Shown here piece by piece: positions 214 through 49,582 of a DNA stretch of 64,000 nt. This DNA comes from Picocystis sp. L7. Lineage: Eukaryota > Chlorophyta > Picocystophyceae > Picocystales > Picocystaceae. A program made the position numbers and the translations under genes. The DNA is taken from contig QXJR01000030.1 in NCBI GenBank assembly GCA_020975725.1, forward strand, positions 372,001-436,000, given 5' to 3'. The notes beneath the pieces are model-generated. The model saw only the letters and a list, made by a program, of their open reading frames with translations, was not told where the DNA came from and did no database searches. The first letter of the stretch is position 1. Every line of letters starts with the position of its first letter.

Positions 214-792
214 ATGGCGGACGTGCACGTGGTGGTGCCTGGAGAGACCCTCTTCGCCATCGCCAGGCGCCATGCGCACGAAGGGGTCACGGTGGCGTCC
301 TTGGTGCGCGTCAACCGCGACACCCTCCGCCATCCCGACCGACTGGCCGTAGGAACGCGCATTCGGCTGCGTGGCGACGTCGCCAGACCGCCTCTGCCGC
401 CGCGTGCGATCCGTGGGAAGGTGCCAGGTGGATGGATGGCGCTGGGATGCGCGGCGGTGGGCGCCAGCGCCCTTCTGCAGATGCAACGGACGCAATCCTC
501 GCTGGCCAGGAGAGAGAAGGACGAGCAGCTGCGCCTGGATCGCCAGAGGCAGAAGACGCACTGGATGCGTGCGCTCGTGGCCGAACCAGGCGTGGTGCGC
601 GAGTATCCGGACGAGGAGAAGTGGTCCACGGAAGAGGAAGACGGACCAGAACCCACCCCAGAGGAGAGGAGCGAAATGCAACGCAAGTATCGTACGTTCT
701 TGAAGCAAACCAAAGCAGACACGTCCCAAATGGCCCTGCCGGGTAAAGAAAACGAGTACGCGGACAGCGAAGAACGCAAGTACTTCACATGA
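214..792 (+). CDS. LysM-domain protein with one predicted membrane segment
   Basis: The 192-residue protein opens with a LysM motif at about residues 5-52 (HVVVPGETLFAIARRH ... LVRVNRDTL ... VGTRIRL). LysM folds bind GlcNAc-type glycans or act as a protein-interaction module. A hydrophobic stretch at about 69-88 (GGWMALGCAAVGASALLQM) may be a membrane anchor, and the rest is charged and probably disordered. The start at 214 is chosen because the ATG directly precedes the domain and has a GCATGGCGG context. The open frame extends upstream to an ATG at 139, but that adds only a cysteine/serine-rich stretch without a motif. The cellular role is unknown. The gene is tail-to-tail with the methyltransferase. 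Confidence 0.7.
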   Translation: MADVHVVVPGETLFAIARRHAHEGVTVASLVRVNRDTLRHPDRLAVGTRIRLRGDVARPPLPPRAIRGKVPGGWMALGCAAVGASALLQMQRTQSSLARREKDEQLRLDRQRQKTHWMRALVAEPGVVREYPDEEKWSTEEEDGPEPTPEERSEMQRKYRTFLKQTKADTSQMALPGKENEYADSEERKYFT

Positions 793-1169
793 TGGCACGT
801 ATGCACCGCCCTCGCATGTTGGATGGAGCAAAGGAGGGGCATACAACGGTGTGGAATGGAACCATGAGCCCGTCCGAGGCATGGCACCTGCCTTTGCATC
901 AACACCTTGGATCCCAAGAGAACCAGGGATGCAGTAGGTACGAAACTCTTGCACGCAGATGGCAGACGTTCACCGAAACGCACAGCAGGACGCCGCTGTA
1001 AGGATGGCTACCTTTGCCGAGAGAGGCGTAGCTGCCAGAAACATCCTCTTTCGACCGTACGTCATGGTGCCAGGGACGGGCAACGCAGTGGCAAGTGGCG
1101 TAGGATACGGCAGGGACGCGTGCATCGCCGGTGTCAAGTTGTTTGTGGTCTTGTAACACGTCCAAGCCA
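793..1169. other. Tail-to-tail intergenic spacer
   Basis: This 377-bp spacer lies between two converging stop codons. It should hold the two 3' UTRs. No RNA gene, repeat or conserved ORF is visible. Confidence 0.5.
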
Positions 1170-1868
1170 TCAGTAGCGCTTGTGATAGATATAGCAGTCG
1201 ACCGCAGCTGGCGTGTGCGTTTGTTGGAGCGGCACGCATTCCACGAACTCGAAGCTGGGCGAATCGAGGGACTTGGAGACGAGCAATACGCGCGCACCCG
1301 GCCGGAGCGCCTCCAATTGCCAGGTCATGGCGTTCAAGAGCCCCCTTCCGAAACACGTCGCGAAGCTGTACACCACGTCCACGCCGTCCAGCGGCTCGTG
1401 GAGCAGGTCCCCGTGCACGAACTCCACCTTGGGCGCGTGGAAGGGCCACGTTCCTTCGGATTCCATCCCGTCGCCTTCCTCGTTGGGTCCCTTTCGCAAG
1501 GCTTGGATCGTGCGTTCCGTCTCGGACTCGTAGGAGGCCAAGGACTGCATGGCGACCTCGTGCAGCGACTCGAGGCGTTCCACGCCTCGGCAGGCTTCGA
1601 ACGGATGCGTGAGGGCTGCTGCCAGGACCGCCTGTCCGGTTCCCGATCCGAGGTCGAGGAAGGTCTCCTTGGACGTCGGCTCCACGCGCGACAGTGCGTG
1701 TGCCATGGCCTCGAATCCGACCTCGCCGTAGAACCAGTCGTCGCTTTGCTTCGCCCATCCCGTCGCCACGGCTTCTCTTTCGGCCATGACCAACGCCTGA
1801 TCGCGATTGACGCGTCGAATCGAAGCGTAGGCGGCGCGCGATAGCGGCTTCGGCGTCGCCATCGCCAT
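1170..1868 (-). CDS. DOT1-like SAM-dependent methyltransferase
   Basis: The 232-residue protein has a seven-beta-strand methyltransferase core: motif I is LDLGSGTGQAVLAAA, followed by CRGVERLESLHEVA and then VEFVHGDLLHEPLDGVDVVY and SFATCFGRGLLNAM. The D-L-G-S-G-x-G-Q motif I and the following GVE motif resemble the DOT1 histone-H3K79 methyltransferase fold. Small stand-alone DOT1-like proteins of this size occur in algae, and their substrate is usually unknown. No chromatin-binding extension is present, so a histone substrate is not implied. The start is the ATG at 1868 (GCGATGGCGATGG context); an in-frame ATG at 1880 adds MCGA. The gene is head-to-head with CLP1, 226 bp between start codons. 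Confidence 0.72.
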   Translation of the reverse strand: MAMATPKPLSRAAYASIRRVNRDQALVMAEREAVATGWAKQSDDWFYGEVGFEAMAHALSRVEPTSKETFLDLGSGTGQAVLAAALTHPFEACRGVERLESLHEVAMQSLASYESETERTIQALRKGPNEEGDGMESEGTWPFHAPKVEFVHGDLLHEPLDGVDVVYSFATCFGRGLLNAMTWQLEALRPGARVLLVSKSLDSPSFEFVECVPLQQTHTPAAVDCYIYHKRY

Positions 1869-2094
1869 CGCGCCACACACCTCTCCCGATCCTCGCTTAA
1901 CTTAACCTCTTCCCTTTCGTAAACCTCCGGCTTCCCCTCCTTTCCCCCTGCTTGTTTTCCCTGAACCTCATCCGGGCGGTGCAGTTCACGACCGATGGCG
2001 TCCCTCCCGGCCACTGGCATCCACGAGTTTAGGTAGGTTAAGTCCGGGTTAAGTTGGACCGAGGTGGAGGGACACCGACGTCCATTTCGACGGG
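1869..2094. promoter_or_regulatory. Short bidirectional promoter (methyltransferase / CLP1)
   Basis: Only 226 bp separate the two divergent start codons. The interval carries GGTTAA-type boxes close to both starts (CTTAACTTAACC near 1896-1907 on the methyltransferase side, and AGGTTAAG plus GGGTTAAG near 2034-2053 on the CLP1 side). Confidence 0.45.
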
Positions 2095-3574
2095 ATGGCG
2101 ACAAGCGCACACGCCGAAGACGGCGACGAAACGACCGTCTGGACGCTCGGAAAGGTGCCTGGACGCGATCCGAGGGGAACGAGCGGGATCAGAAGGAAGG
2201 AAGAGAAGCTGACGAGGGAAGCGGATGCGTACAGGAATGCGAACTGCGGCTGGAAGCGTCGTGGGAGAGTCCGCTCCAAGTGACGGTAAGTCCTGGGCTG
2301 CAAGCGCAGACCATGGGAGAAGATAAAGGTGTTTCTGTACCTGGACGAAGCTGACTTGGATCCGCCGTTGCTTCTCCCGGAAACGCGAACAGCTGCAAGC
2401 CGGAAAGGCGGAAGTGTTTGGAACCGAAATCGCGGTGGGACAGGAATTTTCCTTCAAAGGCCAAAAAATTGCCATCTTCACATGGCACGGTGCCACCATC
2501 CGAGTGAAAGGAAAACCTGAAGTGGCGTACCAAGAAAGCGACACCCCAATGGCCACCTACCTGAATGCACACGGCATCCTGGAAGCCAGGAGGCAACGAG
2601 CAAAGGAAAGCACTGGCAAGGAACAGGAGCTCCAAGGGCCACGTGTGCTCCTTGCAGGACCCGTGGACGTGGGAAAGAGCTCCGTCTCCAAAATCTTGAT
2701 CAACTACGCCGTGAAGAAGGGATGGGCCCCCGTCATGATAGACCTAGACATTGGACAGGGAAGCCTAACAGTGCCAGGGACCATTTCTGCAGTCCCTGTG
2801 GAAGCACCCATTGACATCCTCCGCGGATACCCCCAAGAAATCCCCTTGGTGTACCAGTTCGGACACAGTTCCCCGTCCGAAAATGCGGAACACTACAAAT
2901 ACCTGGTGAAACGGATGGCAGAAGTCCTGGATGCCCGTTGCAAGGCAAGCGAACATGCGCGGTGCTCAGGGATGGTGATCAACACCATGGGATGGGTAGA
3001 GGGCCTAGGATATGCACTGCTGCTGGATGCGGCAAAGACCCTAAAGGTGGACGTGATCCTCGTCATTGGACAGGAAAGGCTCTATAGCGTTCTCAAGGGA
3101 GAGCAGTCTCTCAAGGGGATGGAAATCGTAAAGTTGCCCAAGTCAGGAGGAGTGGTTACGAGGGACAAGGATTATCGACAGAAGTCACGACAGATGAGGA
3201 TCAAGGAATACTTTTACGGCCACGACGAGGAGTATTCGCCGCACTCTCAGAACGTCCCAATCGAAGCATTGAAAGCATACCGCATCGCCAAGAAGCAATC
3301 CGCGTCCGACCATGCGTTGCCGGTTGGGCAGGTGGTGGAGCACAAAACACTGACTGTGACCCCCATGGATTCGACGAAAGACCTCATGCACACTATCCTG
3401 GCCGTGTCTCATGCGAGTACGATCGAAGAAATTGCGGCAGAAAACGTGGCTGGTTTTATATTCGTAGCAGACATTGATACGGCCAATAATAGGCTGACCT
3501 ATTTGGCGCCATGTCCAGGGCCACTGCCAGGAAAATATTTGCTGGGTGGTACCTTGAAGGCTTATTTTGAATAA
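2095..3574 (+). CDS. CLP1: Polynucleotide 5'-hydroxyl kinase CLP1 (mRNA 3'-end / tRNA processing)
   Basis: Three exons (2095-2154, 2235-2285, 2393-3574), all joined in phase 0, give a 430-residue protein. CLP1 is the RNA 5'-kinase subunit of cleavage factor II in pre-mRNA 3'-end formation and of the tRNA-splicing endonuclease complex. The N-terminal beta domain runs from WTLGK across exon 2 (ECELRLEASW) into AEVFGTEIAVGQEFSFKG and AIFTWHG. A Walker A loop GPVDVGKSS lies at about 126-134, followed by DLDIGQGSLTVPGTISAVPV and the C-terminal CLP1 domain. The length is normal for the family. Both introns (80 and 107 bp) contain GCTGAC before the acceptor (2208-2213, 2350-2355). Exon 1 was placed by joining the open frame to conserved family sequence. 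The gene converges on the MBD4-type gene with 24 bp between stop codons. Confidence 0.95.
2155..2234 (+). other. CLP1: CLP1 intron 1
   Basis: 80 bp, GTGCCT...TACAG, with GCTGAC at 2208-2213. The interval to the acceptor is purine-rich. Confidence 0.9.
2286..2392 (+). other. CLP1: CLP1 intron 2
   Basis: 107 bp, GTAAGT...AACAG, with GCTGAC at 2350-2355. It is the only intron here with the textbook donor GTAAGT. Confidence 0.9.
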
Positions 3575-3598
3575 GTGCTGTGTTCTTCTTTGCTTCTA

Positions 3599-4315
3599 CT
3601 ACTTGACCTCCCCTGCGTGCTTTGTGAGACTGGTTCCTTGGTGCTGGTTGGTCACTGATGCATGTGGGACAGGTTCTCGAGTAAACCCGCTCCCCAGCCC
3701 ATCCGTATCTTTTAAGAACTTGACATACAGCTTCAACTCTTTGTCTTCTGGTTCCACCTCTTTCCAAGCTTCGGGCACGCAGAAGATGGCATAAGCATCC
3801 GCTGCGTACGTTCCAATGCCGTGTAGTTCTTCTGGAGACGTCCAATCCTTCTCCAGGTACTCCTGAGAGAACCTCTTGATGGCTTTGCTTCGTTTCCGGA
3901 ACAGTCCGAGGGGTTGAATGATGGCTTCGATTTTCGTTTCGTCCGCCTCCACGGCGGCTTGGGCGTTCGGCACGAGTTCGAATAGTTTCCAGATGACGTT
4001 TCTGACTTGCTTGTTGCTCGTTTTGTTCAGGAGCATGCAAGCCACGAGCAATTTCCAAGGATCGTCGTAGAGCTGTTCTTCGAGCAGCCCGTACGACGAG
4101 GCCGGTGGGATCCACCTCGTATGGTCGTGCTCGTGCGTGTTCCTCCAACCAATTCTTGTACTTCTTTCCTTTCTCTTCATCGGCGTGGGCGGACCTTCCG
4201 TTTTGAAGTACTTGCTCGTTCGCCTGGACAACGCCACCTCCATCGACTTGCTCTTCTTCCGCCTCTTCTTCGCAATGCCGTCCTCGGTTTCGCTCTCTTC
4301 CTTCCCCATTCCCAA
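3599..4315 (-). CDS. MBD4: MBD4-type mismatch-specific DNA N-glycosylase (HhH-GPD)
   Basis: The protein has 238 residues. MBD4 removes T or U from G:T and G:U mismatches in base-excision repair. A basic N-terminal tail (KKRRKKSK) is followed by the glycosylase domain at about 80-215: LYDDPWKLLVACMLLNKTS, then IIQPLGLFRKRSKAI, then the helix-hairpin-helix ELHGIGTYAADAYAIFC with the expected catalytic Asp at about 173. There is no methyl-CpG-binding domain, as in plant MBD4-like proteins. The C-terminus continues about 25 residues past the conserved domain into low-complexity sequence and ends 24 bp from the CLP1 stop, so the 3' UTRs of the two genes almost certainly overlap. Confidence 0.9.
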   Translation of the reverse strand: MGMGKEESETEDGIAKKRRKKSKSMEVALSRRTSKYFKTEGPPTPMKRKERSTRIGWRNTHEHDHTRWIPPASSYGLLEEQLYDDPWKLLVACMLLNKTSNKQVRNVIWKLFELVPNAQAAVEADETKIEAIIQPLGLFRKRSKAIKRFSQEYLEKDWTSPEELHGIGTYAADAYAIFCVPEAWKEVEPEDKELKLYVKFLKDTDGLGSGFTREPVPHASVTNQHQGTSLTKHAGEVK

Positions 4316-5288
4316 CTCGGACGCGTGTACCGCCTTCCAACCGCCTTCTCAGGCGTCGGACCGCCACAAATCGCTCCGCGAAAGCGAAAGCGCGAAGCGG
4401 AGTGGCGCGAAATGACGTCGATGGCGCACGTCGACGTGTGCTTAACCCGTGAGTTAACCGAAAGCATTCGAGAGGCAAACCTGGGGAAAGTCCGAGTTCA
4501 CGAAAGGTAACCTCGCGGTCGAGGGTTGCTGGGAAACACACAGTTGTGAATTCGTTGTGAAGGAGGTGGCGTGGCCACTGGTCCGTACGTGGCGATTCGT
4601 GGGCGTTCGTGTTGGCCTTCGAAGCAGGAAGAAGGCATGCCGTGCGTTTCGGTTCGACGAGGACGGCTTGGCGTCGAGCGCACGTGCGGAGAACCTGGCG
4701 CGTCAGGTGGGACTTCGAGCTGGCACGCGAGTGGGCGTCGTTGGATCAGGAACCAGGGGGCCGACCTGCTTCCTCCGCTACCTTTCCTTTCCTACCACGC
4801 ATGCCTCGTAGATGCATCTTTGCTTCTCGGATCCGCCTTCGACACGTCCCTCTCGTCTCGTGGAAACCGATGGAAACGAAACCATCGCCAACCATAAGAA
4901 CGTACCGGTGTGCAACGCCCTATCGAACCCGACTTCCATCCCCTTTCGAACCCCGATGCCATCCCCTTTCGAACGGACCTCGAGGTTGTCTCTTTCCGTC
5001 CCCTTTCTCGTCCCGATCCACCTCCCTTTCGGAAAGGGAACGGTTTCGGGTTCGAACCCGACTTCCATCCCCTTTCGAACCCCGATGCCATCCCCTTTCG
5101 AACGGACCTCGAGGTTGTCTCTTTCCGTCCCCTTTCTCGTCCCGATCCACTTCCCTTTCGGAAAGGGAACGGTTTCGGGTTCGAACCCGACCGAGGGTCC
5201 GGTCAAGCCAAGGATAGGTTCACGTGCAGCAGGTCCTCCCAAACGACGGCGTTGGAACTCGCATCGCGACGTCCATCGCGCCATCGCC
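4316..5288. promoter_or_regulatory. Head-to-head intergenic region MBD4 / GET3
   Basis: This 973-bp divergent region contains a GTTAAC box at 4453-4458, many TTCGAA elements and a tandem 129-bp duplication (listed separately). A plus-strand open frame at 4557-4811 contains a short run (SSARAENLARQVGLRAGTRVGVVG) loosely like the start of an AMP-binding enzyme. Nothing supports a functional gene. Confidence 0.5.
4924..5181. repeat. Two tandem copies of a 129-bp promoter unit
   Basis: Bases 4924-5052 and 5053-5181 are almost identical, with CACCTCCC versus CACTTCCC the main internal difference I can see. Each unit holds several CCCTTTCGAA-type elements and ends in the 16-bp perfect palindrome TCGGGTTCGAACCCGA (5046-5061 and 5175-5190). 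The array ends about 110 bp upstream of the GET3 start codon. Near-identity implies a recent duplication or ongoing homogenisation. Confidence 0.9.
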
Positions 5289-6399
5289 ATGGACGAAGAG
5301 GCGCCCTCTCCGACGCTGCAGAACGTGCTGGACCAGACCTCCCTCAAGTGGATCTTCGTGGGCGGCAAGGTGCGCGAACGAGACCGCGAGGAGGCCGAAG
5401 TAACGAGGCGGCGGTAGCTGACGGTGTGGCGCGCAGGGAGGTGTCGGCAAGACCACCACGTCTTGCAGCTTGGCCGTGCAGCTTTCGGAGGTGCGGGAGA
5501 GCGTTTTGATCATCTCCACGGATCCGGCGCACAACCTGAGCGACGCGTTTCGCCAGAAGTTCTCCCGTCATCCCACCTTGGTGGACGGATTCGACAACTT
5601 GTACGCGATGGAAGTGGATCCAGAACCCGAAGACGCGCACTTGGCGAACGGAGAGGAAGACGATGGGTTCCTGGCAGATCTGACGTCGTCCATCCCTGGG
5701 ATCGACGAGGCGATGAGCTTCGCCGAGGTCATGAAACAAGTGCAGACCATGGATTACTCGGCCATCGTGTTCGACACCGCACCCACCGGACACACGCTGC
5801 GATTGCTCCAGTTTCCCACCGTGCTGGAAAAAGGACTCAACAAGATCCTCAGCCTCAAGTCCATGATGGGTGGCATGATGGCGCAGCTGGCCAAGATGAT
5901 GGGTGGACAAGAGGAAGGAGAAGACGAAATGATCACCAAAATGGCAGAACTCAAAACCGTGGTGGAAAAGGTCAACGTACAGTTCAAAGATCCAGAAATG
6001 ACCACCTTCGTATGCGTGTGCATCCCGGAGTTCCTTTCCCTCTACGAAACCGAAAGGTTGGTGCAAGAACTGGCCAAGTTCGAAATCGACACTCACAACA
6101 TCGTCATCAACCAAGTGCTCTTCCCAGAAAGAGCAGGAGGATCCAAGCTGCTGGGCTCCAGAATAAAGATGCAACAGAAGTACTTGGACCAATTCTACGA
6201 CCTCTACGAAGATTTTCACATCGTCAAGATGCCGCTCCTGGAAGAGGAAGTGAGGGGGGTGGACGCGCTGCGGGCATTCTCCAACAGCCTTGTCCAACCC
6301 TACACCCCGCCACCGGCACCGGAGACAGAAGACCAGATCTCCAACTTGCAGCAGAAGATCATTGAGCTGGAAGCAGAAGTCAGAGCACTCAAGGCATGA
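5289..6399 (+). CDS. GET3: GET3 ATPase, tail-anchored protein targeting factor (plant type)
   Basis: Two exons (5289-5369, 5437-6399) are joined in phase 0 and give 347 residues. GET3 is the cytosolic ATPase that carries tail-anchored proteins to the ER GET1/GET2 receptor. The intron interrupts the P-loop: exon 1 ends IFVGGK and exon 2 starts GGVGKTTTS. Switch and client-binding motifs follow ([47 protein letters not shown]). At the position of the fungal/animal zinc CxxC the protein reads [18 protein letters not shown], without cysteines, as in plant GET3a. A short coiled coil ends the protein. The intron is 67 bp, with GCTGAC at 5417-5422. The UBE2J product in this window is itself a tail-anchored protein and a plausible client. 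Confidence 0.95.
5370..5436 (+). other. GET3: GET3 intron
   Basis: 67 bp, GTGCGC...CGCAG, with GCTGAC at 5417-5422, 15 bases from branch A to the acceptor G. Confidence 0.93.
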
Positions 6400-9300
6400 G
6401 CACCCAGAGGGGTCTGCCAGGGGAGAGCACACCGAGACAAAGAATTGCCTCGGAAGCAGCGCAGACGAACTGGAATCTCCCAAATGATTGAAACTGACTG
6501 GGGAATAATCGGACACTTTGATAGATCAAGTGTTGTCTTGGTTCCAATGTATCCTACAGACAGAAGAAGGTATGCACAGCACATTTTCTTTTTTTCTAGC
6601 ATCTGTAAAGTGGCTATTCTCCTCTGCGTCAACTCATCCACGTGCACGTGTGGATCCACTGTCCCTGGAGGAAACCGCGCTGGCGTTTTTGTCCCTCAAA
6701 ATGCTCTGTGTTCGCCAAGACTCTTTACGTTTTAATCTCAAAAAACACTCTCATATGACTGAGGGATACTGGATCTAGGGTGTTACAACCTCTCTGGCTC
6801 GCTGTTTCGCGCAAGCTTGTCCGAGCAGCCACCCTAACAACAGGTGCAAGAGGAAAAAGAAATGTCTTTCCAGTTCCTCCAATCCACATGATGCCGTAGA
6901 AGTGTTCTTGCATTGCAACCTAGGCCTCGCAAGCCTAGCAAGGCCTTTTGTCTTCTTGGAGGAAACCTTGACTGGCAGGAATGGAACAAACGTAAGAATT
7001 TGCATCCCTAGTGAATTGAATTCCTCATACAAGGACATCAACCCAGCATGACTACACTATCCACCATGGTAGTCTGATCCTCTAACGCTATCATTCATCG
7101 CATTGAAATGAGGGTCTTCACAACACCAAGTTTTGTGTACTTTTCCACCAAAGTTGGGGAATGGAAAGGTGCACACTCGCATGGCTTCGTAACGCCAATT
7201 TCCGTCATTTGAAGGTTACGCAGTACACGAGGTTAGTGAAAGAGTGGGCATGGACGCCCACCCCTCTTAAATTTCCTTGGCCCCTTCCAGTGAAAGGAGT
7301 ATTCTCCATCGTGATGAGGCACTACGATGCTTGTAGGACATACAAGAGGCCTTGCATTCGTTGGAAAGAAGGAAGGCGATGACTTCCTTCCACCAAGTTC
7401 ACTTGTAGAGGGAGATGCCTTCTCCTATAATAGTGCCTAAAAGACGCTCAAAGGGGTTGAATGTATGAAGCCCACAGCAACCATTAACACGCTTACACCT
7501 AAGGGAACAGAATCAACAAGACCAAATCGGTTGAAATAGATCCAAGGTCGAAAGTCCCTAAAAAGACTGTTGAAAATTTTGTGGTGTGTACAAATTGTTA
7601 GGCAAAGGTCATTGATGCGATTACGAGATCAAAAATGTGATCTAAGACCACCCATGTGTATTGTCGAAATGTTCCATTATGTCGACATAGATATTTAATT
7701 TCCCGCTTTAAGAGACCTTCCATAGAATGACACGTGCGACTTGTGCCATGTGAAAAAGTAGAAATATGCAAGCGAAAGTTTATATGACAATTCATGCTAG
7801 GAACGAACGATGCTTACGGAGCATTCATGGTTGTCGTTCCATTTCGTGATAGACATCCCGGCCTTTGGAGCATGATTGGTGCATGCGATGAATGCATTAG
7901 ATACTAGACTATCTTTTCTTTTGATGCATTAAAGTTTTTGACAACTCGCAAGAATCACCACCACGCGGCCGGCGCATTGGATCAACGATGGGTGTACTTT
8001 TTTATTGTCAAAATGCAACCGCAATATGCAAATCTGAGATCCGAGTACAAGAAGGTGGCCAAGGTTTTACAACAGTGTCTATTTAGTTGGACCCTTCCCG
8101 GTGTAACTAGAGCCGCCCACGAGGCTCTCTCCCGTCTCATCTAGGACATTTAGATGGAGAGCCGAATCCTAGATGATGAGATGGAAAAGGAGAAGCATTG
8201 GTTTTACGATTGAATGGTCAAGTACCCAATTTCCATCTTGATCTAGGTGGCCCGACATTCTGATGAATAGGTGTTCACTCAAGTAGCGTTGAGTCACTTT
8301 CATAGCTAGCCCATGACCATCGTCACGCCCACCTTGTACGTTAGCTTGCAAGCATTGGAGTTGTCACCAAACGACCTTAAGCCCATTGCAAAGATAACTG
8401 AAGCAAATTGGTCTTCTATTGTTAACGTACTCAAAGTATGCGTGACAGTGATGTTGTTCAAAAGGACGCTAGAAATGAGCAAGATTTTCGGTGGTGTCCG
8501 CTTTTCGCCGCCCAAGAGAATGATCGCCTCCATGTCGCCTACCACTAAACTCGTTTAATTGGGACCAACCAACATAGACATCGGAATCCATTGGGGAAGA
8601 CCAAAGTCCATGCATTGGGTCGAGAACGCTAGGCACAATTACCAATCATTACTTCTTTGAAAGCAAAGCTACAATTCAAATGTGATCGTGCAGGCCGATT
8701 GAAGGACTGCATTGTGGCATGCTCGAGATGAAATCTAAGCTATCTTTTGAACTCTATCTTGTGCCTCTGGAGGAGGCGGAGACCTCACTTCGTTTCTCAA
8801 ACATGTGCAAGTGAACACGGCCACGTATAAGTGCATGTGATTCATATGCACGCAAAGAAAGTGGAATATGTAGACTCCGCGTCCATTTGGTAAAATGAAG
8901 CCAATGTTTGCAAACGTTTTCAATCACAAGCAATCGAAGGAGGGTAAGGGCAAAACGATGAAGGTATTGTAGGGTCTTGCGATGGTTGCCCCAGGCGACG
9001 AAAGGATGCTTATTATCTGGATTTGTCTTGCGTTCTAAGAGATTTGATGTCATTCAATCTAGCGAATCTTGGTTGAGTCTCAGACGAGCGTCGTGCGCCA
9101 CAAGATGATAATACATAAGGAAGGAACGGGGAGATGAATGAAGGAGACGATCCAAGTTTTGAGGTGATGCGATTTTACAAACAAAACGAAATGTTTATTT
9201 GTGCGTAGGAACCATAACGCCACAATCAACAAAATGAACTACATGCTATGAAATCGTCCATGACTCCCGTGGCGCTCCAATAACGAATTCGTGAGGGAGG

Positions 9301-9524
9301 GGATTAGGCTATGGACTTGTCATTGAAAGGAAGGGCGTGGATCCGGGATGGAAGCATGGAGGACTCTCCCGGGACATGGTCCGTGATAAAAGAACGTCGA
9401 GAGCCTATGTCAAAACGGCTTTCAGGGACGTACCATGTCGCCACTTCAATCCATACATCACCTGCCCTCAAGGGAAGTGCATGTTACCCCCTTGGCCAAA
9501 TGCATTAAATGCTCGTAACATACT
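6400..9524. other. AT-richer gene-free region between GET3 and DHX15
   Basis: About 3.1 kb lies between converging genes. Base composition is visibly more AT-rich than the flanks and only short open frames occur in all six frames. I recognise no gene, RNA, terminal repeat or transposon motif. Parts (for example 8169-8545 and 9311-9508) have moderate open stretches that may be eroded coding or mobile DNA, but no family can be named. Confidence 0.5.
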
Positions 9525-12007
<2,483 letters not shown>

Positions 12008-19217: not shown

Positions 19218-19218
19218 T

Positions 19219-19234
19219 CTCAAGGCTCTTAACC
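19219..19234 (-). other. Probable primer-binding site of the copia element
   Basis: Directly inside the 5' LTR the minus strand reads GGTTAAGAGCCTTGAG, the position of a tRNA primer-binding site. The matching tRNA cannot be named without a search. Only about 17 bases separate the LTR from the first ATG, which is a very short leader. Confidence 0.4.
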
Positions 19235-40289: not shown

Positions 40290-42049
40290 GATTGCGGCGC
40301 ACGTCCAATCGCGATCGCGATGCAATGTCCCTCGATGGGATTAAAACGAACGAATTAAGTCGGAGCTGGAAGGTCCGGCGAAGCCACGTCGGATCGGACC
40401 TCCTCGGGGAGGGGAAGGAACGGATCCGGAAGGAGGGGACGGGGACGGGTCGAGAGGGGGACGGAGGAACGGATGCCGACGAGGAGCGAAAGGATGGGGG
40501 GGGTCGGGTTCGAAAGGGGCAAGGGTTCGGGTTCGAAAGGGTGGGTCGAAAGGGAGGCTTGATCGAGACCATGGGGATGGGTGCCAACCGACGATTCAAG
40601 ACCCGTCGGAGAACCCGCACCCGTGGGTCCATCGTTTCTCGATCCAAACGGGTTCCCGATCGAGGAAAGGAGCCCTTCGATGAGTCGGGGTGACGTCAGC
40701 CCTTCCTGACCGTTCGAAACCGAGGGATGGGTGGGACCGTACCACGTGTCCGAGCTGGCAGGAAGCCGGGGCGAAGGTGCCCCCTCCGGAACCACGTGAC
40801 GCTTCGAACCGGGCTACAGACCCCCTCCCCCCGGGACACCTCGACCGTCCGTTGGTGCCAGGTCAGCAACCCGGGGCCGAGCCGGGACAGGGCGAGACGG
40901 GTCGGAGATGGCGGGAGAGCCATCCGCGAGACCCCCTCCGGGACCACGTGGGACGAGGCCCCGTGTCCCACGTGCGGATCCCCCCACACACACAACGGTC
41001 CCCACGTGCATCAAATCCGTCACGGGATGCTGAGGTGGCATCCGCGGGCGCGCGTCGGTCGCAAAAGGACGCGGACGTGGCGCCGAATCCACAACACGAG
41101 CCTCCTTCGCATCCGATTGGAGGGAACGAAGGTGGACGGCGTGGACCTCGAATGGTTTTCTCACGATACAAGCCGTGCCGTCGCCATTTGCCAAAGGCGT
41201 CGCGTACACGTGTGACCGGCAGGCGAGAATCTCGGCTCCTGTCGGTCGCTTGATGGGCACCAAAACGGCTCCATTGAACGGTATAGGTGAGTTTGTCGTC
41301 CATGTCTCGAACCACAAGAATATGCCCAAGCATATACAAACGCATCTTGCATGTCGTCCCTGCAACCGCCGACGATGATGGGCGGATGGATGGAAGGAAG
41401 GGAAGGATCCGTGCCATCCGATTCCACCTTCGTGTCACGATCGATGGTTTGTGTGGTTCGCTCGTTCGGGTGGTGCGGAGACGTCTCCGCGTGGGATTGC
41501 TGTTGACGAACGTTTGGCTCCATGATGGCTCGATCCCCCCAACCTCTGCGCTCGGTGCATTGTGTTGTGGGAGGGAAGCACGGATTCGTTCCTTGAAAAC
41601 CTGCTTCGATGGAACGCGAAGCGATGGGAGCGATGCGTCGACCCTCGAACTGGCACGAACCGGCACTTGTTCTCGGATGCATCCAAAAGCGTGCAACGTG
41701 CGCGTGCTCGATTCGTCGATGCGAAGCGTCTTCCTCGCATGCCTTGTCCTCGACGCTTGGGACCACGCATCCACCGTTGCATCCGATCCCACCTCTCTCT
41801 TGACCTTTGCATCGTCTCCCATCCACGTCATGGAGGCTTCCCGTGGTCGCGACATCCACGTCCACCTTCCCAACCGCCTCGGTGTGGTCCCCAAGCCATG
41901 GACCAGTGCACCTCCCTCCCTTTCGAATCCATCGCTTGAAAGGGGAGAAGGACGTCCCTTCGGACTAAGGTTCCCGATCGATTCGGAGGGAGAAGGGAGG
42001 CGAAAGGGGTGGCCTCGAAGGCAGAGGCGGTGGACGTGGCGAAGGCGGC
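40290..42049. promoter_or_regulatory. Head-to-head intergenic region lipase / TFIIH p44
   Basis: This 1.76-kb GC-rich region has four GTTCGAA/CTTCGAA elements between 40500 and 40815 and five CACGTG boxes within 266 bp (40743, 40793, 40945, 40969, 41003). The part at about 41180-41900 is less GC-rich. Open frames on both strands look random. Confidence 0.55.
40743..41008. promoter_or_regulatory. Cluster of five CACGTG (G-box/E-box) elements
   Basis: CACGTG occurs at 40743-40748, 40793-40798, 40945-40950, 40969-40974 and 41003-41008. CACGTG is the core site of bZIP and bHLH factors in plants and algae. By chance one site is expected every 4 kb or so. Confidence 0.7.
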
Positions 42050-43258
42050 ATGGCGACGGCGCTTGCGCCATGGATGGAAGGAGAAGGCGACGAAGAGGAG
42101 GACGAGGTGCCTGCCGAAGAGGCCAGGATGGAGCTGGAGGCGTACGAGCGGCGATACGCCGACGAACGGTCCTGGGAACGCGTGGACGTGGCCGTGCAGG
42201 AGCACGTCCTCGAGCAACAGCGCAGGCGCAGGCAAGGCAGAAGAGCGCCTTCTGGGATCCGAAGAGGACTGATCCGACACCTCGTGCTCGTGCTGGATTG
42301 CTCGGACGCAAGCCTGCAAGGTGACGTGTGCTTCCGACCCACGCGGCTGTCCGTCCTCGTCGCCTCCGCCGAGCAGTTCGTGCGCGAGTTCTTCGACCTG
42401 AACCCGCTCAGCAGCATGGCGGTGGTGTGCATGCGGAATGGCGTCGCAGAAGCCGCCACGGAGATGACCAGCAGCCCAGAATCCCACGTGGAAGCCTTGC
42501 GAACCGCGGCCAAGCGAACCGGTGGAAGTGCGTCGGTGCAGAACGGGCTGATGGTGGCCCAACGTGCACTGTCCGGCGCTCCACCGTATGCCAAGAGGGA
42601 AGCCGTGCTGCTGCTGGCCGCCATCACCAGCTGCGATCCAGGAGACATCAAATCTACCATTGGAGACACCAAGAAGGAACGCATCGCCTGTTCTGTGGTG
42701 GGAGCGGCCGCGGAAGTGTACCTGTTCAAGATGCTGGCCAAAGACACCGGTGGGACCTATTTTGTGGCCAAAGACGAAACGCATTTCCAGCAACTCGTCA
42801 TGGCACACGCCACACCGCCACCCGCTGCGCCCGACGAAGTGGCGTGCCTGGTACGCATGGCCTTCCCACGCAGGAACGCCGCAGATTCATTGGGCCTGTT
42901 TGGAAGAGATGCCACGCAGCGCAGGACCGGACTCAAGCGGGGAGGATACACCTGTCCGCAATGCAAAGCGAGGGTGAAGGAACTGCCCGCAAAGTGCTCC
43001 GTTTGCGAAATGACCCTCATCTCAGCACCCGATCTTGCAAGGTCGTACCACCACCTGTTTCCGGTACCAACCTTTGAAGAAATCCAGGGAGAACCCATGG
43101 CCGAGCGTTGTTTTGGATGCACCAGGGAATTGCGTGGACAGAAGGACGGGGGCCTCGCTCTGTGGTGCAACGGATGCAAGAACTGCTTCTGCTTCGAATG
43201 CGATGTGCAAATACACGAATTCATGTTTGTGTGTCCGGGATGCGAACAGGGAGAGTGA
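42050..43258 (+). CDS. GTF2H2: TFIIH subunit p44/SSL1
   Basis: A single exon encodes 402 residues. p44 anchors and activates the XPD helicase in TFIIH for transcription initiation and nucleotide-excision repair. The VWA domain starts at about 75 (RGLIRHLVLVLDCSDAS) and contains NPLSSMAVVCMRNGVAE, GSASVQNGLMVAQ and EAVLLLAAITSCDPGDI. A C4 zinc ribbon follows (YTCPQCKARVKELPAKCSVC) and then a RING-like C-terminal domain (CFGCTREL ... WCNGCKNCFCFECDVQIHE ... CPGC). All family parts are present and the length is normal. The start ATG at 42050 has a GGCATGGCG context. Confidence 0.95.
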   Translation: MATALAPWMEGEGDEEEDEVPAEEARMELEAYERRYADERSWERVDVAVQEHVLEQQRRRRQGRRAPSGIRRGLIRHLVLVLDCSDASLQGDVCFRPTRLSVLVASAEQFVREFFDLNPLSSMAVVCMRNGVAEAATEMTSSPESHVEALRTAAKRTGGSASVQNGLMVAQRALSGAPPYAKREAVLLLAAITSCDPGDIKSTIGDTKKERIACSVVGAAAEVYLFKMLAKDTGGTYFVAKDETHFQQLVMAHATPPPAAPDEVACLVRMAFPRRNAADSLGLFGRDATQRRTGLKRGGYTCPQCKARVKELPAKCSVCEMTLISAPDLARSYHHLFPVPTFEEIQGEPMAERCFGCTRELRGQKDGGLALWCNGCKNCFCFECDVQIHEFMFVCPGCEQGE

Positions 43259-43469: not shown

Positions 43470-44486
43470 TCACCAAATGGACTTCAACACATCCTTCCAC
43501 GTCGATGGCGACATGATGGACGCTGCTGGAGAGGGGGGAGTGGGTGGCTTGCATACGTAAGCACACTTCTTGTTGACGATCTTCCACACTGGAATCTTCA
43601 GGTGGCACCAAGCAGCAACCACTGCTTCTGCAGGATGGTCTTTGGCAAACTCACAGAAATCATGGAACTTGGGCTCGTCCTCGTGCTTGAAGCAGAATTT
43701 ACCAATCTTTGCGTATGTGACATTGTACATGTGCTCCAAGCCATGTTTCAGGCACCTTGTACACTTTGGGGTGGGAGGGGCAGGGCAGCCCGCGTCCTCC
43801 AAGGCAGGCTTGTTTTTCTTGACGCATCCCTCGAAGCAGCTCAGGGGGGATGTGGGATCCCCACTGCAGTAACCGCAGAGTTCCTTCACCTTCTCGGCGC
43901 AGGAGGGAGGCAGGAACGGGCCTTTCTTCATGAGATTGGCCGGGTGCTCCTGCTGCCCCTGGACGAGTAGCTCTGACTGCAGGGGGGTGGGAAATCCGCT
44001 GGCACAGACATCCAGTCCAAAGGGGCCTTCGGGGGCAAAGAGCCCCGGTTCCATCGTCTCTTCTTTGTGCATGTACGGGCAGTGCTTTCCTTCCTGCAAG
44101 AGCCCACCAGAAAGATCGGACATGGACGCCATGCATCCTGCTTCCACGAACTCTGGCTTGTGGTCCACCATGCACATCTTGTAGCACTTGAAGTCCGGGA
44201 GAGTCTCGCCAGGGTGTGCACACTCGGAACACACCTTTTCCACCAAAGCAAGGCACTTTTTGAAATCGAATGGTTTCTCTCCTTTCTTCTCCACTTGGTT
44301 CGGGATCACGTCCAAGAGCTGGTCTTCGTTCAGGTCCAGTTCCGGCACTTCGAAGAAGGTCCCGCGTCCAGCGGTTCCCACGGCCGTGCTCTGCACCCGA
44401 ACACCATCTTCAGGTGCAAACCTCACCCCGGAAGCGGACGCGAAGAGGCACAGTGCGGCGGCGAAGGACGCGATCTTGGCGGCCAT
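43470..44486 (-). CDS. Secreted cysteine-rich protein with a duplicated six-cysteine module
   Basis: The 338-residue protein has a clear signal peptide (MAAKIASFAAALCLFASASG). I do not recognise the family. Two modules share the spacing C-x7-C-x2-C-x(9 or 11)-C-x3-C-x12-C: C78, C86, C89, C101, C105, C118 and C196, C204, C207, C217, C221, C234, each ending in (E/D)AGC. A third cysteine cluster (C242 to C312) is spaced differently. A proline-rich tail follows. One N-glycosylation sequon (NVT) is present. Such duplicated disulfide modules suggest an extracellular, vacuolar or ER-lumen protein. It is head-to-head with the alpha/beta hydrolase across a CACGTG-rich promoter. Confidence 0.75.
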   Translation of the reverse strand: MAAKIASFAAALCLFASASGVRFAPEDGVRVQSTAVGTAGRGTFFEVPELDLNEDQLLDVIPNQVEKKGEKPFDFKKCLALVEKVCSECAHPGETLPDFKCYKMCMVDHKPEFVEAGCMASMSDLSGGLLQEGKHCPYMHKEETMEPGLFAPEGPFGLDVCASGFPTPLQSELLVQGQQEHPANLMKKGPFLPPSCAEKVKELCGYCSGDPTSPLSCFEGCVKKNKPALEDAGCPAPPTPKCTRCLKHGLEHMYNVTYAKIGKFCFKHEDEPKFHDFCEFAKDHPAEAVVAAWCHLKIPVWKIVNKKCAYVCKPPTPPSPAASIMSPSTWKDVLKSIW

Positions 44487-45689: not shown

Positions 45690-47234
45690 ATGGCGTCCGA
45701 GCTGGCCACCCGTGCCGTGTTCGGTGCGATGTCCGCACTGGGCAGGCTCGTGCGCAAGAACAAGCCGGTGATGGTGCTGGAACCGAACCGAGATGGACGA
45801 GACAGGAAGCAAGCGCTCTTCGTGATGATGCCTGGTGCCTTCAAAGATCCAAGCCTCTATCGACCGCTGGCCGAAGCAGTGCAGAAAGAATGTGAAGAAA
45901 GAAACGTGGCACTGTACGTGACCCTGTCTGCACTCCCCTTCGGTCTGGGAACGGAAGGTGACGCCCAATCCGAATATCAGGCCGCCGTGGAACATGTCAA
46001 AACCCTGGGATTCGATCCAGAAGAGAACCAGCTGGGAATCTCCGACAAAGTGTACGTGGGCGGACACAGCTGGGGTGGAGCCATCAGCAGGAAAGTGGGA
46101 TTCGATCGTGCGCAGGGCGTCGTGCTCATGGGAGCTTCCTGCAAGGCAATGTCCAATCCGATGGGAGATACCGTGCCGCAAGGCATCGCCGAATGGCACA
46201 AGCCGATGCTCGTGGTGGCGGCCGAGCTCGATGGACAAGCGAGGCTGCCCTATGCAGCGCTTGACTGGCAGGAAGCCCGGGAAGCCAGTGCTTCCGCTGA
46301 CGAACCAGATGTGCTCAGCGCCCCTTACAAGTGCGTGGCGGTGGTCGAGGACATGAACCATTCGCAGTTCTGCGACGGAATGCCCAACATACCGCGTGGC
46401 GACATCGGAGTGGCGGTGCAGCAAACGGAGACCGTGCAACGCACGGTGGCCCGCATCATTGCCGACTTTATCGCCGCAGACCAGCTGAAAGATCCCGCCT
46501 GCATCCAGCGCATGGCGGAGTACAACTCTCACACGGGGGCACTGGTCGAGACATATCTGAACGCGTTCAAAGAAGCGGTGAACAAGGAAACTGCAGTTGC
46601 CGTGCAGGTTCATATTGCACAAGAAGGGATCAGTAAGGAGCAGATCTCCGCTTACCTACACAAGGACCAGGCTGCCTTTGTGTTTTCCAAGCCAGAATTG
46701 CTGCAAGCCGAAGCGGGCACTCACTGCCGAGTCCAATACTTCGTAGAGCCAGATTCCACGCATAGAGGTGGAAGGAGAAACAGCCGCAATCGGTGTTCTC
46801 CTACCTTGTGGGTGAAGAGCAAAAGCGCAGAGGCCATTGCCGCAGCAGGAGGAAGCGAAGCAAAAAAGCTACCTCACGGCCAGCGTGCCGCAGAATTCAA
46901 CCAAGCCACCTACGCGCGAGCATTGGGGATGGTCTCTCCAAAGGCACGGGAACGCTTTGAGAAGTACGGTCGGCCGCTCCGATTCGTTCCTGACTACATG
47001 GCAACCTCGGGTCAGGACTGGGTGAAGACGCCGGTAAGATACCAAGTAAACGAGGATGGAACGTTGGACGTTTGCTGCCCTTACCTTCACACGGAGCTGG
47101 GAATGATCAAACGATACGCTGGAATGCACTACGTCAAAGTCTTGAGTGTATCCCTGTTGATCGAGTACATACTGGTCGATGCTTTTTGTGCGGCAGAAGG
47201 CTTGGGATATGTCACCAAAACGTCCGAATCGTAG
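45690..47234 (+). CDS. Alpha/beta hydrolase with an unknown C-terminal half
   Basis: The protein has 514 residues. The first half is an alpha/beta hydrolase: FVMMPGAFKDPSLYRPLAEAV, the nucleophile elbow VGGHSWGGAISRK with Ser about 127, VVAAELDG (Asp about 181) and VVEDMNHSQFCDG (His about 224), giving a plausible catalytic triad. Residues about 255-514 match nothing I recognise. The substrate is unknown; a dienelactone-hydrolase/PHB-depolymerase-like esterase is possible. Residues 358-372 (HRGGRRNSRNRCSPT) are oddly basic, while the next reading frame over the same bases gives a protein-like IEVEGETAAIGVLLP, suggesting two compensating shifts. The start follows a CACGTG box directly. Confidence 0.78.
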   Translation: MASELATRAVFGAMSALGRLVRKNKPVMVLEPNRDGRDRKQALFVMMPGAFKDPSLYRPLAEAVQKECEERNVALYVTLSALPFGLGTEGDAQSEYQAAVEHVKTLGFDPEENQLGISDKVYVGGHSWGGAISRKVGFDRAQGVVLMGASCKAMSNPMGDTVPQGIAEWHKPMLVVAAELDGQARLPYAALDWQEAREASASADEPDVLSAPYKCVAVVEDMNHSQFCDGMPNIPRGDIGVAVQQTETVQRTVARIIADFIAADQLKDPACIQRMAEYNSHTGALVETYLNAFKEAVNKETAVAVQVHIAQEGISKEQISAYLHKDQAAFVFSKPELLQAEAGTHCRVQYFVEPDSTHRGGRRNSRNRCSPTLWVKSKSAEAIAAAGGSEAKKLPHGQRAAEFNQATYARALGMVSPKARERFEKYGRPLRFVPDYMATSGQDWVKTPVRYQVNEDGTLDVCCPYLHTELGMIKRYAGMHYVKVLSVSLLIEYILVDAFCAAEGLGYVTKTSES

Positions 47235-47317: not shown

Positions 47318-48274
47318 TCACTTTGGAGGGTCCTCGGCGTGCTCCCTTCTCCGCTTGCTACTGGCGACGCTTGCATCGCTTCTGAGAGGTTTCATCGCCG
47401 AATGGACGTCCTCTTGAAAGGACCAGGCGATTCCCCAGCGATGCGTCCTTCCCTGTACGAATTCTGTAGTCCGTAGGCCGGGCACGTTCAACGCATGCAG
47501 GAGCTTGCGTACGGATTTGAGGGTCTTTTTCTTCCCGACCATGGTCGTGAACCAATGGACCCTCGTTTTGAAATCCAAGCTCTCCATCACCATGGTTTTG
47601 ACGAACTCCTCCTCCCCCCCAGGACAGACCATTTCCTGCATGGTTCCTCCGAAATCTGTCCTTGGATTCAATCCCGCCTCGTCACCTGTGGCAAAGAACG
47701 GCGGGTTGCACATCGTAAAGGCTACTTTTTCTCCAGGGAGCAGTGCTGATCGGAGGATGGATTCCCCTTCCACGTAGTGGACGGACTCGCGTGCATCTCT
47801 CACTTGGATGAGGGGCTGCAGTTGCGGGTTTCGCTCCACGAGGTCTCGGGCCGCTTTCAATGCACCTTCGTGCACGTCCACGGCCACAAAGGACCATGCA
47901 TGGATGCTTGCACCCAGCAGTGCATAGACACAGTTGGCACCACATCCCACATCGATTCCTTGCACTGATGGTCCAGTTTGTCCCCTTTCCCAGAGTCCCG
48001 CCAGTTGCAGCAAATCTTCGATCCAATGCACGTAATTGGTCCGATTGGGCAGGCTGGGACACAGGTATCCGGAGGGAAGGTTCCATTCGACGCCGAAATC
48101 TTCCAGGAGGAGCGCCTTTGCAAGTGCGACGGATGCCTCGTAGCTGTTCCATGCGAACTTCCTTCGCTCGGATCCAGGTCGGACGGGCTTCCAGTGCGGT
48201 TTCAGCGCGGGATGTCGTGCCACCAATCCTTCCCAATCCAACGGTTTGTCGCGGTACACGTTCCTGGGATGCAT
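47318..48274 (-). CDS. METTL16: METTL16-type RNA N6-adenosine methyltransferase
   Basis: The protein has 318 residues. METTL16 methylates A43 of U6 snRNA, and in animals the MAT2A mRNA. The N-terminus MHPRNVYRDKPLDWEGLVARHP matches the conserved METTL16 opening (MHxRNRYKDKPPDF). The core shows NRTNYVHWIEDLL, GIDVGCGANCVYALLGA, VAVDVHEGALKAA and the catalytic NPPF at 190-193 (TMCNPPFFAT). The FVKTMVMES and VHWFTTMVGKKKTLKSVRKLL segments follow. The vertebrate C-terminal VCR domains are absent, as in plant FIO1. The start at 48274 is fixed by homology. It is tail-to-tail with the hydrolase (83 bp). The product U6 m6A lies opposite the 5' splice site in spliceosomes. Confidence 0.93.
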   Translation of the reverse strand: MHPRNVYRDKPLDWEGLVARHPALKPHWKPVRPGSERRKFAWNSYEASVALAKALLLEDFGVEWNLPSGYLCPSLPNRTNYVHWIEDLLQLAGLWERGQTGPSVQGIDVGCGANCVYALLGASIHAWSFVAVDVHEGALKAARDLVERNPQLQPLIQVRDARESVHYVEGESILRSALLPGEKVAFTMCNPPFFATGDEAGLNPRTDFGGTMQEMVCPGGEEEFVKTMVMESLDFKTRVHWFTTMVGKKKTLKSVRKLLHALNVPGLRTTEFVQGRTHRWGIAWSFQEDVHSAMKPLRSDASVASSKRRREHAEDPPK

Positions 48275-48660
48275 GCTGCGATGGCGACGTGTCCATGCGC
48301 GTTTGGCGACGCGTCCAAGGATCCACGCCCGTTTCGAAATCGATTTTCTCGATCGAAACGCATTCCTGTTCGGGAACTCGAATCCCTTTCGGATCGGAGT
48401 CGCTTCCCCCATTTGATCGGAAAGCCTCTTCGTGTATCGTTTCCCCTTTTAATTTTCTCTTCCGGACAAGAAAATCCGTTCCCTTTGGTGACCGTTTCCG
48501 GTGGTCCCTTTCGGACCCGAAGGCCTCCGGTTCCGTGTTTCCCTTCCGAAATCCTCGATCGTACCGGAAAACCGATCCCTTTCGAATCCTCCTTTCCAAG
48601 GCAATGCAGTCGCCTTCTCCAAAGGGAAACGTCTCCCTTTCGTTTCCCAATCGTGTCGGC
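48275..48660. promoter_or_regulatory. Bidirectional promoter METTL16 / small two-TM gene
   Basis: This 386-bp divergent spacer is crowded with CCCTTTCG/TTTCGAA-type words (for example CCCTTTCGGATCGG near 48385, CCTTTCGAATCC near 48580), the same pyrimidine-TTCGAA-purine family seen elsewhere. Confidence 0.5.
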
Positions 48661-49074
48661 ATGGCCGTGGAAAGCGCGTCCATCGCGCCGCGCGCGAAGC
48701 GTCCCGCCTCTTTCGTGCTCGTGCTGGCCTTCCTGGTCTCCGTTCCCGTGCTCAAACGCGTGCACGAAACCACCAGGAAGCGATGGTGGCGCTCGGAGGG
48801 CGTGCCACGTCCGTCCCAGCCGACGAAGCGCACCGCGAAGGTCGACGAAATGGACGTGTCGAAGCACGAAGAAGAGAAGATAGAAGCGCGTTGTGAATAC
48901 GTCAAAGGAAGGTCGAGATCCTGGACGTGCTCGTCTGCATCGTCCAAGGCGAGGACGCAACTGCTTCACCTGGGACACGCCGCCTTGGCGCTCTTGGCCA
49001 CCTTCCTCACCGCCGTCTTCGTCTTCTGCTCGCTCGCGCAGCTGTCCACGCACCACGTGATCGTCACTCATTGA
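48661..49074 (+). CDS. Small protein with two predicted membrane segments
   Basis: The 137-residue product starts at an ATG with GGCATGGCC context. Two hydrophobic segments are visible: residues about 17-33 (SFVLVLAFLVSVPVL) and 104-125 (ALALLATFLTAVFVFCSLAQL), separated by a basic then acidic loop. The two-helix layout recalls small V-ATPase assembly factors such as VMA21, but no diagnostic motif is seen, so the function is left open. No GCTGAC-type intron is present. It obeys the strand alternation of the region and lies head-to-head with METTL16. Confidence 0.5.
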   Translation: MAVESASIAPRAKRPASFVLVLAFLVSVPVLKRVHETTRKRWWRSEGVPRPSQPTKRTAKVDEMDVSKHEEEKIEARCEYVKGRSRSWTCSSASSKARTQLLHLGHAALALLATFLTAVFVFCSLAQLSTHHVIVTH

Positions 49075-49201
49075 AATGCGAAGCGAAGGTCGGAAAAGAA
49101 ACAACGCGGCACGTGGAGAACGTTCGCGGTGGCCGACGGACAGCCTCCAAGAGAACAGGAGGTGAACGCGGACGGGAAGGTGCAAGCAAGTTTGGCTCCC
49201 A

Positions 49202-49582
49202 TCAGATCTTGTAGGATGCATGGACTTCTTCGATCGAGACGTTCAACTCATCAATGCTCTGGTGCATCATCCAAGGCATGTTACCCGAACGGTGCAGACG
49301 GGAAAACATGAACGCTACAGAACTTGCGTAGAGCGGATGTTCGGGACTCGAGGCGTACCTTGCATCTACAGCAGGACGAGTGCGGTCGGCCATGGACAGG
49401 AGCAGGGCCCCCGTTAGAGAGTATGGGAATTCCATATGTTTGCAGATGGAGGCAAAGCACGCGTACCACCATCCAATCGTAAGAAAGCCAGGAGAACCCA
49501 TTGGCATATACGTTGCGTCGTTGTGTCCCTCCTTGTTGAACAAATGTGCATTTGGACGATGTTCCTCAACACAGCGCCACAT
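49202..49582 (-). CDS. Candidate small membrane protein, family not recognised
   Basis: The 126-residue open frame has gene-like codon use and two hydrophobic stretches (PGFLTIGWWYACFASIC and YSLTGALLLSMA). The segment DATYMPMGSPGFLTIGWWYA is loosely like the start of single-span mitochondrial subunits of the COX7a type (x-x-Y-[LM]-x-x-G before the helix). It fits the strand alternation and the tail-to-tail spacing of the region (127 bp from the preceding stop). Similar-length random frames do occur in the AT-rich stretches, so this remains a candidate. A further 5' exon beyond 49582 cannot be excluded. Confidence 0.4.
   Translation of the reverse strand: MWRCVEEHRPNAHLFNKEGHNDATYMPMGSPGFLTIGWWYACFASICKHMEFPYSLTGALLLSMADRTRPAVDARYASSPEHPLYASSVAFMFSRLHRSGNMPWMMHQSIDELNVSIEEVHASYKI

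Follow-up and report, generated by a model that had tools for sequence, protein, structure and literature searches.

Eukaryotic genes are, for the most part, oriented almost at random. Is a long chain of strictly alternating genes in the green alga Picocystis sp. L7 then a singular arrangement, or one stretch of a wider bias? The chain lies in 64,000 nucleotides of contig QXJR01000030.1 (C28:372001-436000; hereafter the window, to which the positions below refer), in a genome of 20.5 Mb and 30 contigs, and a first description of the window (the sequence-only reading) had counted 23 to 24 alternating genes. Our analysis covered some 290 kb, or about 1.4% of the genome; this total includes the window, comes mostly from C28 and extends to a second contig, C1. 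In the stretches covered, neighbours lie on opposite strands clearly above chance: among 82 pairs of adjacent host genes, 65 alternate and only 17 are tandem. Orientation is far from random, and our counts support a bias that reaches beyond the nominated region.

The alternating chain

Genes were called with a self-trained 3-periodic (codon-phase) hidden Markov model (HMM), trained on the window and 167 kb of flanks and run over C28:272001-503190; the gene list of the sequence-only reading was not used. In curation, Copia was taken out, one split gene was joined and one merged model was split; the HMM had merged the gene for a ubiquitin-conjugating enzyme (E2) with Copia, and a PHM7-type gene with a MatE gene. 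We excluded before counting the Copia open reading frame (ORF) at 15147-19319, ORFs scoring below 12, and 11 C28 gene models to the right of window +78 kb. Seven of these 11 were scanned whole or in part, and six of the seven carry retroelement domains (Gypsy or Copia). A Copia fragment at window position -88517 is left out of the 65/82 pair counts and is still included in the gap-length, composition and element-density figures.

This independent call confirmed the strict alternation. From the LysM gene (plus) to the METTL16-like methyltransferase gene (minus), 22 host genes alternate, and the chain grows rightward by RPN7 (plus) and leftward by 3.6 kb through ADH (minus) and HORMA (plus), giving 25 consecutive host genes in strict alternation from -3621 to 53587. 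Of the 25 junctions between the 26 host genes of the window, 23 alternate, and both breaks described before, at RPN7/FNR-like and at choline-transporter-like (CTL)/SHMT, were found again. The core of the earlier gene count stood; its 23rd gene, a two-transmembrane (two-TM) ORF at 48661-49074, is marginal, and its 24th, at 49202-49582 (minus), has a coding score of -4.9, compared with 46 to 52 for three accepted small genes. Neither gene is established. The chain is independent of both, since METTL16 (minus) to RPN7 (plus) alternates without them. The genes and other ORFs are as follows.

214-792, plus: LysM protein gene, first of the chain as originally described; Pfam LysM 1.6e-09, HMM score 52
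1170-1868, minus: DOT1-like methyltransferase gene; Pfam DOT1 6.1e-13
2095-3574, plus: CLP1 polyadenylation factor gene, 2 exons (HMM model); Pfam CLP1_P 1e-67
3599-4309, minus: HhH-GPD base-excision repair gene, 24-bp convergent gap to CLP1; Pfam HhH-GPD 1.6e-08
5289-6399, plus: ArsA/GET3-like ATPase gene, 2 exons; Pfam ArsA_ATPase 8e-94
9525-11663, minus: DEAH-box helicase gene (HMM start 11465, ORF start 11663); Pfam OB_NTP_bind, HA2, Helicase_C
12008-13042, plus: ketopantoate hydroxymethyltransferase gene; Pfam Pantoate_transf 5.6e-103
13423-14442, minus: E2 gene, stop-to-stop ORF; Pfam UQ_con 8.3e-17
15147-19319, minus: Copia-type retroelement ORF, on the strand of its E2 neighbour and set aside as non-host; Pfam RVT_2, rve, gag
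20401-21798, plus: cytochrome b5-domain protein gene (ORF may begin upstream, at 19981); Pfam Cyt-b5 1.1e-13
21931-22407, minus: gene of unknown function, 158 aa; HMM score 46, without Pfam match
24200-24727, plus: RbfA-like gene; Pfam RBFA 4e-25
25138-26022, minus: FAA hydrolase gene; Pfam FAA_hydrolase 6.5e-75
28702-29406, plus: DUF1168 gene, stop-to-stop ORF (HMM start 29020), convergent gap of 8 bp; Pfam DUF1168 3.9e-23
29415-31064, minus: GT8 glycosyltransferase gene; Pfam Glyco_transf_8 2.3e-07
32307-33434, plus: flavin amine oxidase-like gene; Pfam Amino_oxidase 4.9e-18
33676-34591, minus: GATase/aluminium-induced-protein-like gene with a 61-bp split, two HMM pieces joined by hand; Pfam DUF3700, GATase_7
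36613-37950, plus: ADP-glucose pyrophosphorylase-like gene; Pfam NTP_transferase 1.3e-63, LbH_GLGC 1.6e-50
38394-40214, minus: class 3 lipase gene; Pfam Lipase_3 6.3e-19
42074-43258, plus: TFIIH Ssl1 gene; Pfam Ssl1 1.1e-55
43470-44486, minus: gene of unknown function; HMM score 53, without Pfam match
45690-47234, plus: alpha/beta-hydrolase-like gene; Pfam Abhydrolase_6 3e-05, just under the curated cut-off, HMM score 121
47318-48412, minus: METTL16-type RNA methyltransferase gene (HMM start 48274); Pfam Methyltransf_10 8.6e-73, and homologues
48661-49074, plus: possible two-TM ORF, taken as the 23rd gene of the earlier count, not established; score +4.2, not called by the HMM
52562-53587, plus: RPN7 proteasome gene, last of the 25-gene run; Pfam RPN7 8e-59
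54342-55400, plus: gene described earlier as FNR-like, same-strand break after RPN7; HMM score 90, no Pfam match at E<=0.01
55669-57939, minus: CTL gene; Pfam Choline_transpo 5.3e-93
60034-61296, minus: SHMT gene, second same-strand break; Pfam SHMT 3.1e-182

Pfam matches at E<=0.001 were obtained for 23 of the 26 window genes, one of them under its curated cut-off, and the gaps of the window hold no unexplained coding-like stretch scoring above 15. Rfam gave no match at the gathering threshold anywhere in the window, and none at E<=0.5 in 1-38400 and 48275-60033.

Strength and extent of the bias

On C28, 51 of 61 pairs alternate, a value reached in none of 20000 strand shuffles; the longest run in these shuffles was 21. 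Outside the nominated run, alternation was found at 41 of 58 pairs on both contigs together (0.71, p=0.002) and at 27 of 37 on C28 alone (p=0.008). A comparison of run lengths with shuffled orders had been proposed for the whole assembly; in the part covered here, C28 lies beyond all shuffles and C1 is not significant.

The sequence-only reading had put the run at once in 2^22 trials, and this estimate fails. The run was chosen for its length and the rest of the sequence is itself biased, so that odds of 1 in 2^22 are not the right measure. If the genome is assumed to have 7000 genes, its longest run should be about 24 at a junction probability of 0.7 and about 35 at 0.8. A run of this length should thus turn up at some place in the genome, and our principal result is the bias, not the run. 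For the 63 genes of C28 by themselves, a run of 25 stays rare (its probability is 0.002 if the junction rate is 0.70, 0.039 if it is 0.80 and 0.13 if it is 0.85), and therefore a locally stronger alternation bias on C28 is possible.

Distance dependence and composition of the gaps

Same-strand pairs are 7 of 53 at distances of up to 1 kb, 10 of 66 up to 2 kb, and 7 of 16 beyond 2 kb (up to 2 kb vs beyond, Fisher p=0.018). Pairs no more than 300 bp apart comprise 23 convergent, 3 divergent and 2 tandem ones. The median gap is 205 bp for convergent pairs (n=34, 28 of them below 600 bp), 995 bp for divergent pairs (n=33, 17 of them below 1 kb) and 1291 bp for tandem pairs (n=16); the difference between the last two is not significant. 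Shared termination zones, proposed earlier side by side with obligatory bidirectional promoters, fit better than the latter, given the tight convergent gaps. A model of additive spacing, in which nothing is shared and the divergent-tandem difference equals the tandem-convergent one, fitted a first small set only; with 16 tandem gaps the estimate is -1382 (interval -3115 to 197), and we do not claim it.

The divergent gaps have a GC content of 0.58 and an observed/expected (o/e) CpG ratio of 1.11, compared with 0.51 and 0.92 in convergent gaps and 0.55 and 0.88 in genes. They are enriched in CCCTTTCG (42 vs 2.5 expected) and GGGTTCGA (32 vs 3.6 expected), which we regard as a candidate promoter element. 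Its density in divergent gaps is 1.74/kb on C28 and 1.82/kb on C1, the same two regions from which the element was chosen, and the divergent gap 4310-5288 alone has 13 overlapping occurrences. The density is 0.11/kb in convergent gaps; in tandem gaps it is 1.50/kb on the 500-bp promoter side and 0.17/kb elsewhere. As an independent check, CCCTTTCGAACCC has 181 copies in the genome vs 1 of the reversed control. Relative to the nearest start codon, CCCTTTCG is sense 21 times and antisense 21 times, and CCCTTTCG and GGGTTCGA in divergent gaps lie mostly within about 700 bp of it in either orientation. Two clusters in the window are the following.

4923-5191, no strand: candidate promoter element array (CCCTTTCG/TCGAACCC) in a divergent gap, inside a 129-bp tandem duplication just upstream of the ArsA-like gene
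40506-40554, no strand: candidate promoter element cluster in the divergent gap lipase/Ssl1

In the 11 divergent gaps of at least 1.4 kb, of which one is bounded by the Copia fragment and the largest may contain undetected genes, the element density drops from 1.64/kb at the ends to 0.36/kb in the middle, and CpG o/e from 1.21 to 1.01. CACGTG is flat across them (1.27/kb at the ends, 1.18/kb in the middle). On balance, each large divergent gap appears to hold two separate promoters that point away from each other. UGUAA is a polyadenylation signal in core chlorophytes; no sense-strand peak of UGUAA past stop codons was found here.

A 3.8-kb plus-plus gap on C28 at window positions -10357..-6587, flanked by a D-lactate-dehydrogenase-like gene (read from its translation) and an L13 ribosomal protein gene, holds two minus-strand small nucleolar RNAs (snoRNAs), snoZ103 and snoR2/U65 (L018:271-361 and L018:1435-1572, some 10 kb to the left of the window), and the order plus, minus, plus is thereby restored. 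Same-strand genes missed in the gaps had been seen as the danger to the pattern; missed genes were indeed found, at this one place outside the window, but on the opposite strand, and so they act in the opposite sense. On C1, a 2.7-kb tandem gap overlaps an open frame that matches a cytosine methylase. A tRNA match at L011:6066-6261 (plus) spans 196 bp and so has a long insert. The convergent gap 6400-9524, at 3.1 kb, shows neither a coding nor an Rfam signal; a query with 6500-9500 gave one other genome match only (C1, 177 query bases, 71%).

Possible explanations of the bias

The explanation we favour, tentatively and with slightly less than even confidence, is that close same-strand neighbours are selected against, because upstream transcription, as we propose, reaches the next promoter; the chain in the window would then be one stretch of a wider orientation bias. 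The bias, its distance dependence, the gap composition and the promoter-side element are its demonstrated part, and the selection on orientation suggested in the sequence-only reading fits the bias. The tandem deficit is local, which points to an interaction between neighbouring transcription units, and transcriptional interference may be the selective agent. Tandem genes that lie close together are known to interfere with each other in Arabidopsis, according to the available part of the source (PMC6761125). Transcription of the upstream gene would enter a promoter lying just past its terminator, and same-strand neighbours within about 2 kb would be disfavoured by selection. Tail-to-tail pairs would persist, with two terminators meeting typically within 100-400 bp, as would head-to-head pairs, with two promoters back to back in a CpG-rich island of about 1 kb. 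Such a symmetric two-gene unit is unchanged by inversion, and thus a chain of units would alternate strictly without any chain-wide mechanism.

A bolder version, which we hold to be doubtful, is that two-gene units form one chain across the whole genome and close tandem transcription is all but prohibited, with CCCTTTCG(AACCC)-marked CpG-rich promoter islands, AT-rich terminator valleys of about 200 bp, snoRNA genes able to comply, and a bias stronger than the Ectocarpus figure given below. If this is true, strand rather than function would constrain gene order.

Several points weigh against selection on close same-strand neighbours. The gene models are predictions from the sequence, several default models contain assumed introns longer than 400 bp, and the gene finder can fuse tandem neighbours. 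With a costly-intron setting 67 of 90 pairs alternate; with introns forbidden the value is 66 of 94 (0.70, p=1e-4), which is a lower bound because this setting breaks up real multi-exon genes. When the retroelement-rich C28 arm is put back, 57 of 74 C28 pairs alternate, and C1 alone, at 14 of 21, is not significant (p=0.19). Long tandem gaps holding transposable elements or missed genes confound the distance effect, and another plus-plus gap, of 2.4 kb, holds only a tRNA on the strand of its neighbours. Furthermore, one SPOC+TFIIS_M protein (the BORDER domain pair) is encoded in the genome (L032, C12:488300-490400); the lack of a BORDER-type protein is thus ruled out as the cause, and a missing BORDER safeguard is not the reason for the deficit. 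Loss of RNA interference as permission for convergent pairs was also considered and is not supported, as one Piwi match was found.

An alternative, which we consider unlikely, is that most genes are locked in head-to-head pairs on one bidirectional promoter with one nucleosome-free region, and alternation follows. The CpG-rich divergent gaps and the element without preferred orientation are consistent with it, as is CACGTG, which does not drop in the middle of large gaps; in the divergent gaps below 1 kb, about half of all, one shared zone is indistinguishable from two. In Ectocarpus, divergent pairs less than about 600 bp apart have a common nucleosome-depleted region, in the available text of the report (PMC7784034). 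However, the divergent gaps of Picocystis are long and not significantly unlike tandem ones, whereas the corresponding Ectocarpus medians are 409 and 2293 bp (same report, same part), and in the large gaps both the element and CpG o/e peak at the ends, as expected of two promoter zones. These long, mostly two-ended gaps disfavour obligatory shared promoters, and the earlier suggestion of obligatory bidirectional promoters is not supported.

Torsional coupling, acting on the kb scale, is a less probable explanation still: negative supercoiling would help divergent promoters, and positive supercoils would cancel at convergent ends. The effect here fades over about 2 kb, near the range of about 1 kb in a published model of divergent pairs, where, in the part of the paper available, eukaryotic divergent pairs gain expression (PMC4154641). 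The same part predicts a smaller effect and no strong penalty for tandem pairs, but tandem pairs are missing here; sequence offers nothing to tell torsional coupling from interference.

We give the same low weight to a regional or sampling effect, in which C28 happens to alternate and the rest of the genome is near random. C28 and C1 differ in the direction it expects (Fisher p=0.12), the small part of the genome covered is mostly one contig, and a junction rate of 0.70 still leaves the run of 25 improbable. Nevertheless, the bias persists on C28 outside the nominated run, and helicase paralogues elsewhere show a like arrangement. Seven such loci on other contigs were examined; four of the five with a readable 3' neighbour are convergent at 74-145 bp (two on C1, one each on C12 and C26), and the tandem one is on C7. 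The two loci without readable neighbour overlap on C5. A helicase-paralogue locus, L002, is tandem on both sides.

A gene-calling artefact, with same-strand genes merged or missed, is very improbable, for although the HMM made the two fusions mentioned above and weak ORFs were discarded, the bias survives the no-intron setting, most window genes have Pfam support, and the window gaps are free of unexplained coding-like stretches.

Comparison with other organisms

In the brown alga Ectocarpus, neighbouring genes are found preferentially on opposite strands, and 61.7% of genes flanking intergenic regions adjacent to transcription start sites are in divergent pairs, as given in the available part of the report (PMC7784034). 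On a like measure, 2D/(2D+T) for divergent (D) and tandem (T) gaps, the value here is 66/82 (0.80), with a random expectation of 0.5, and the bias is thus apparently stronger than in Ectocarpus. A bias of gene order is, by that part of the report, already known in brown algae; the present case differs in gap anatomy and in apparent strength. The short divergent and long tandem gaps of Ectocarpus have no counterpart in Picocystis, where it is the convergent gaps that are tight and the divergent ones measure about 1 kb. No strand alternation in a green alga was noticed in open-literature listings or by term search inside the available text of green-alga genome papers.

The bidirectional-promoter pairs of animals, plants and fungi resemble the present ones in that divergent genes flank a CpG-rich stretch whose elements have no fixed orientation; unlike them, about half of the divergent gaps here exceed 1 kb, and the large ones have the element mainly at both ends. 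In old regions of the Saccharomyces cerevisiae genome, the mean gaps are 205 (convergent), 412 (unidirectional) and 489 (divergent), so that convergent gaps are shortest in compact yeast genomes as well; the orientation null in the available part of that paper is 25/25/50% (PMC3128071), whereas the tandem share here, 17/82, is far from the roughly 50% of random orientation. The BORDER system of Arabidopsis is similar in that close tandem genes need protection, and its SPOC+TFIIS_M protein type is also present here, but 50% of Arabidopsis genes share the strand of the next gene upstream, and so such a bias is absent there, as far as the available text goes (PMC6761125).

A lineage biased against close tandem neighbours would show, as a natural experiment, how far transcriptional interference shapes gene order, and would allow the interference, shared-promoter and torsion models to be tested apart from one another. 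For promoter mapping in an unstudied alga, the candidate element and the CpG-rich islands are useful starting points.

Other features of the genome

The green-algal character of the genome is seen in its ARC6-like, ADP-glucose pyrophosphorylase-like and aluminium-induced-protein-like genes; no match to a phycobilisome linker was found in the genome. The best named relative of the METTL16-like protein is the JGI model Astpho2 (48%), which we take to be Asterochloris, followed by plants and other green algae. The top PDB chains matching the window SHMT are presumably plant enzymes.

The CpG o/e of transposons is 0.31 in the window Copia, 0.46 in another Copia and 0.82 in a Gypsy-like element, and DNA-methylase matches are present in the genome. 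The depletion in the window Copia is compatible with CpG methylation. We infer unmethylated promoter islands within a partly CpG-methylated genome. The cytosine-methylase domain PF00145 has 121 genome matches, many of them short, in open frames of 1000-1800 aa, and one lies inside a Gypsy-like RNaseH/integrase frame (C28, L022:6617-8260); the frames bearing it are possibly retroelements with a methylase-like domain. Contigs C3 and C4 are both rich in short methylase-domain matches. Among the CCCTTTCGAACCC matches listed (100 of 181, by contig), none is on C3 and at least 4 are on C4. These two contigs are possibly outlier, repeat-rich chromosomes. C28 itself is retroelement-rich between window +78.9 kb and its end (L020-L025), where a satellite with CCGGGAATTCCGG units closes the contig.

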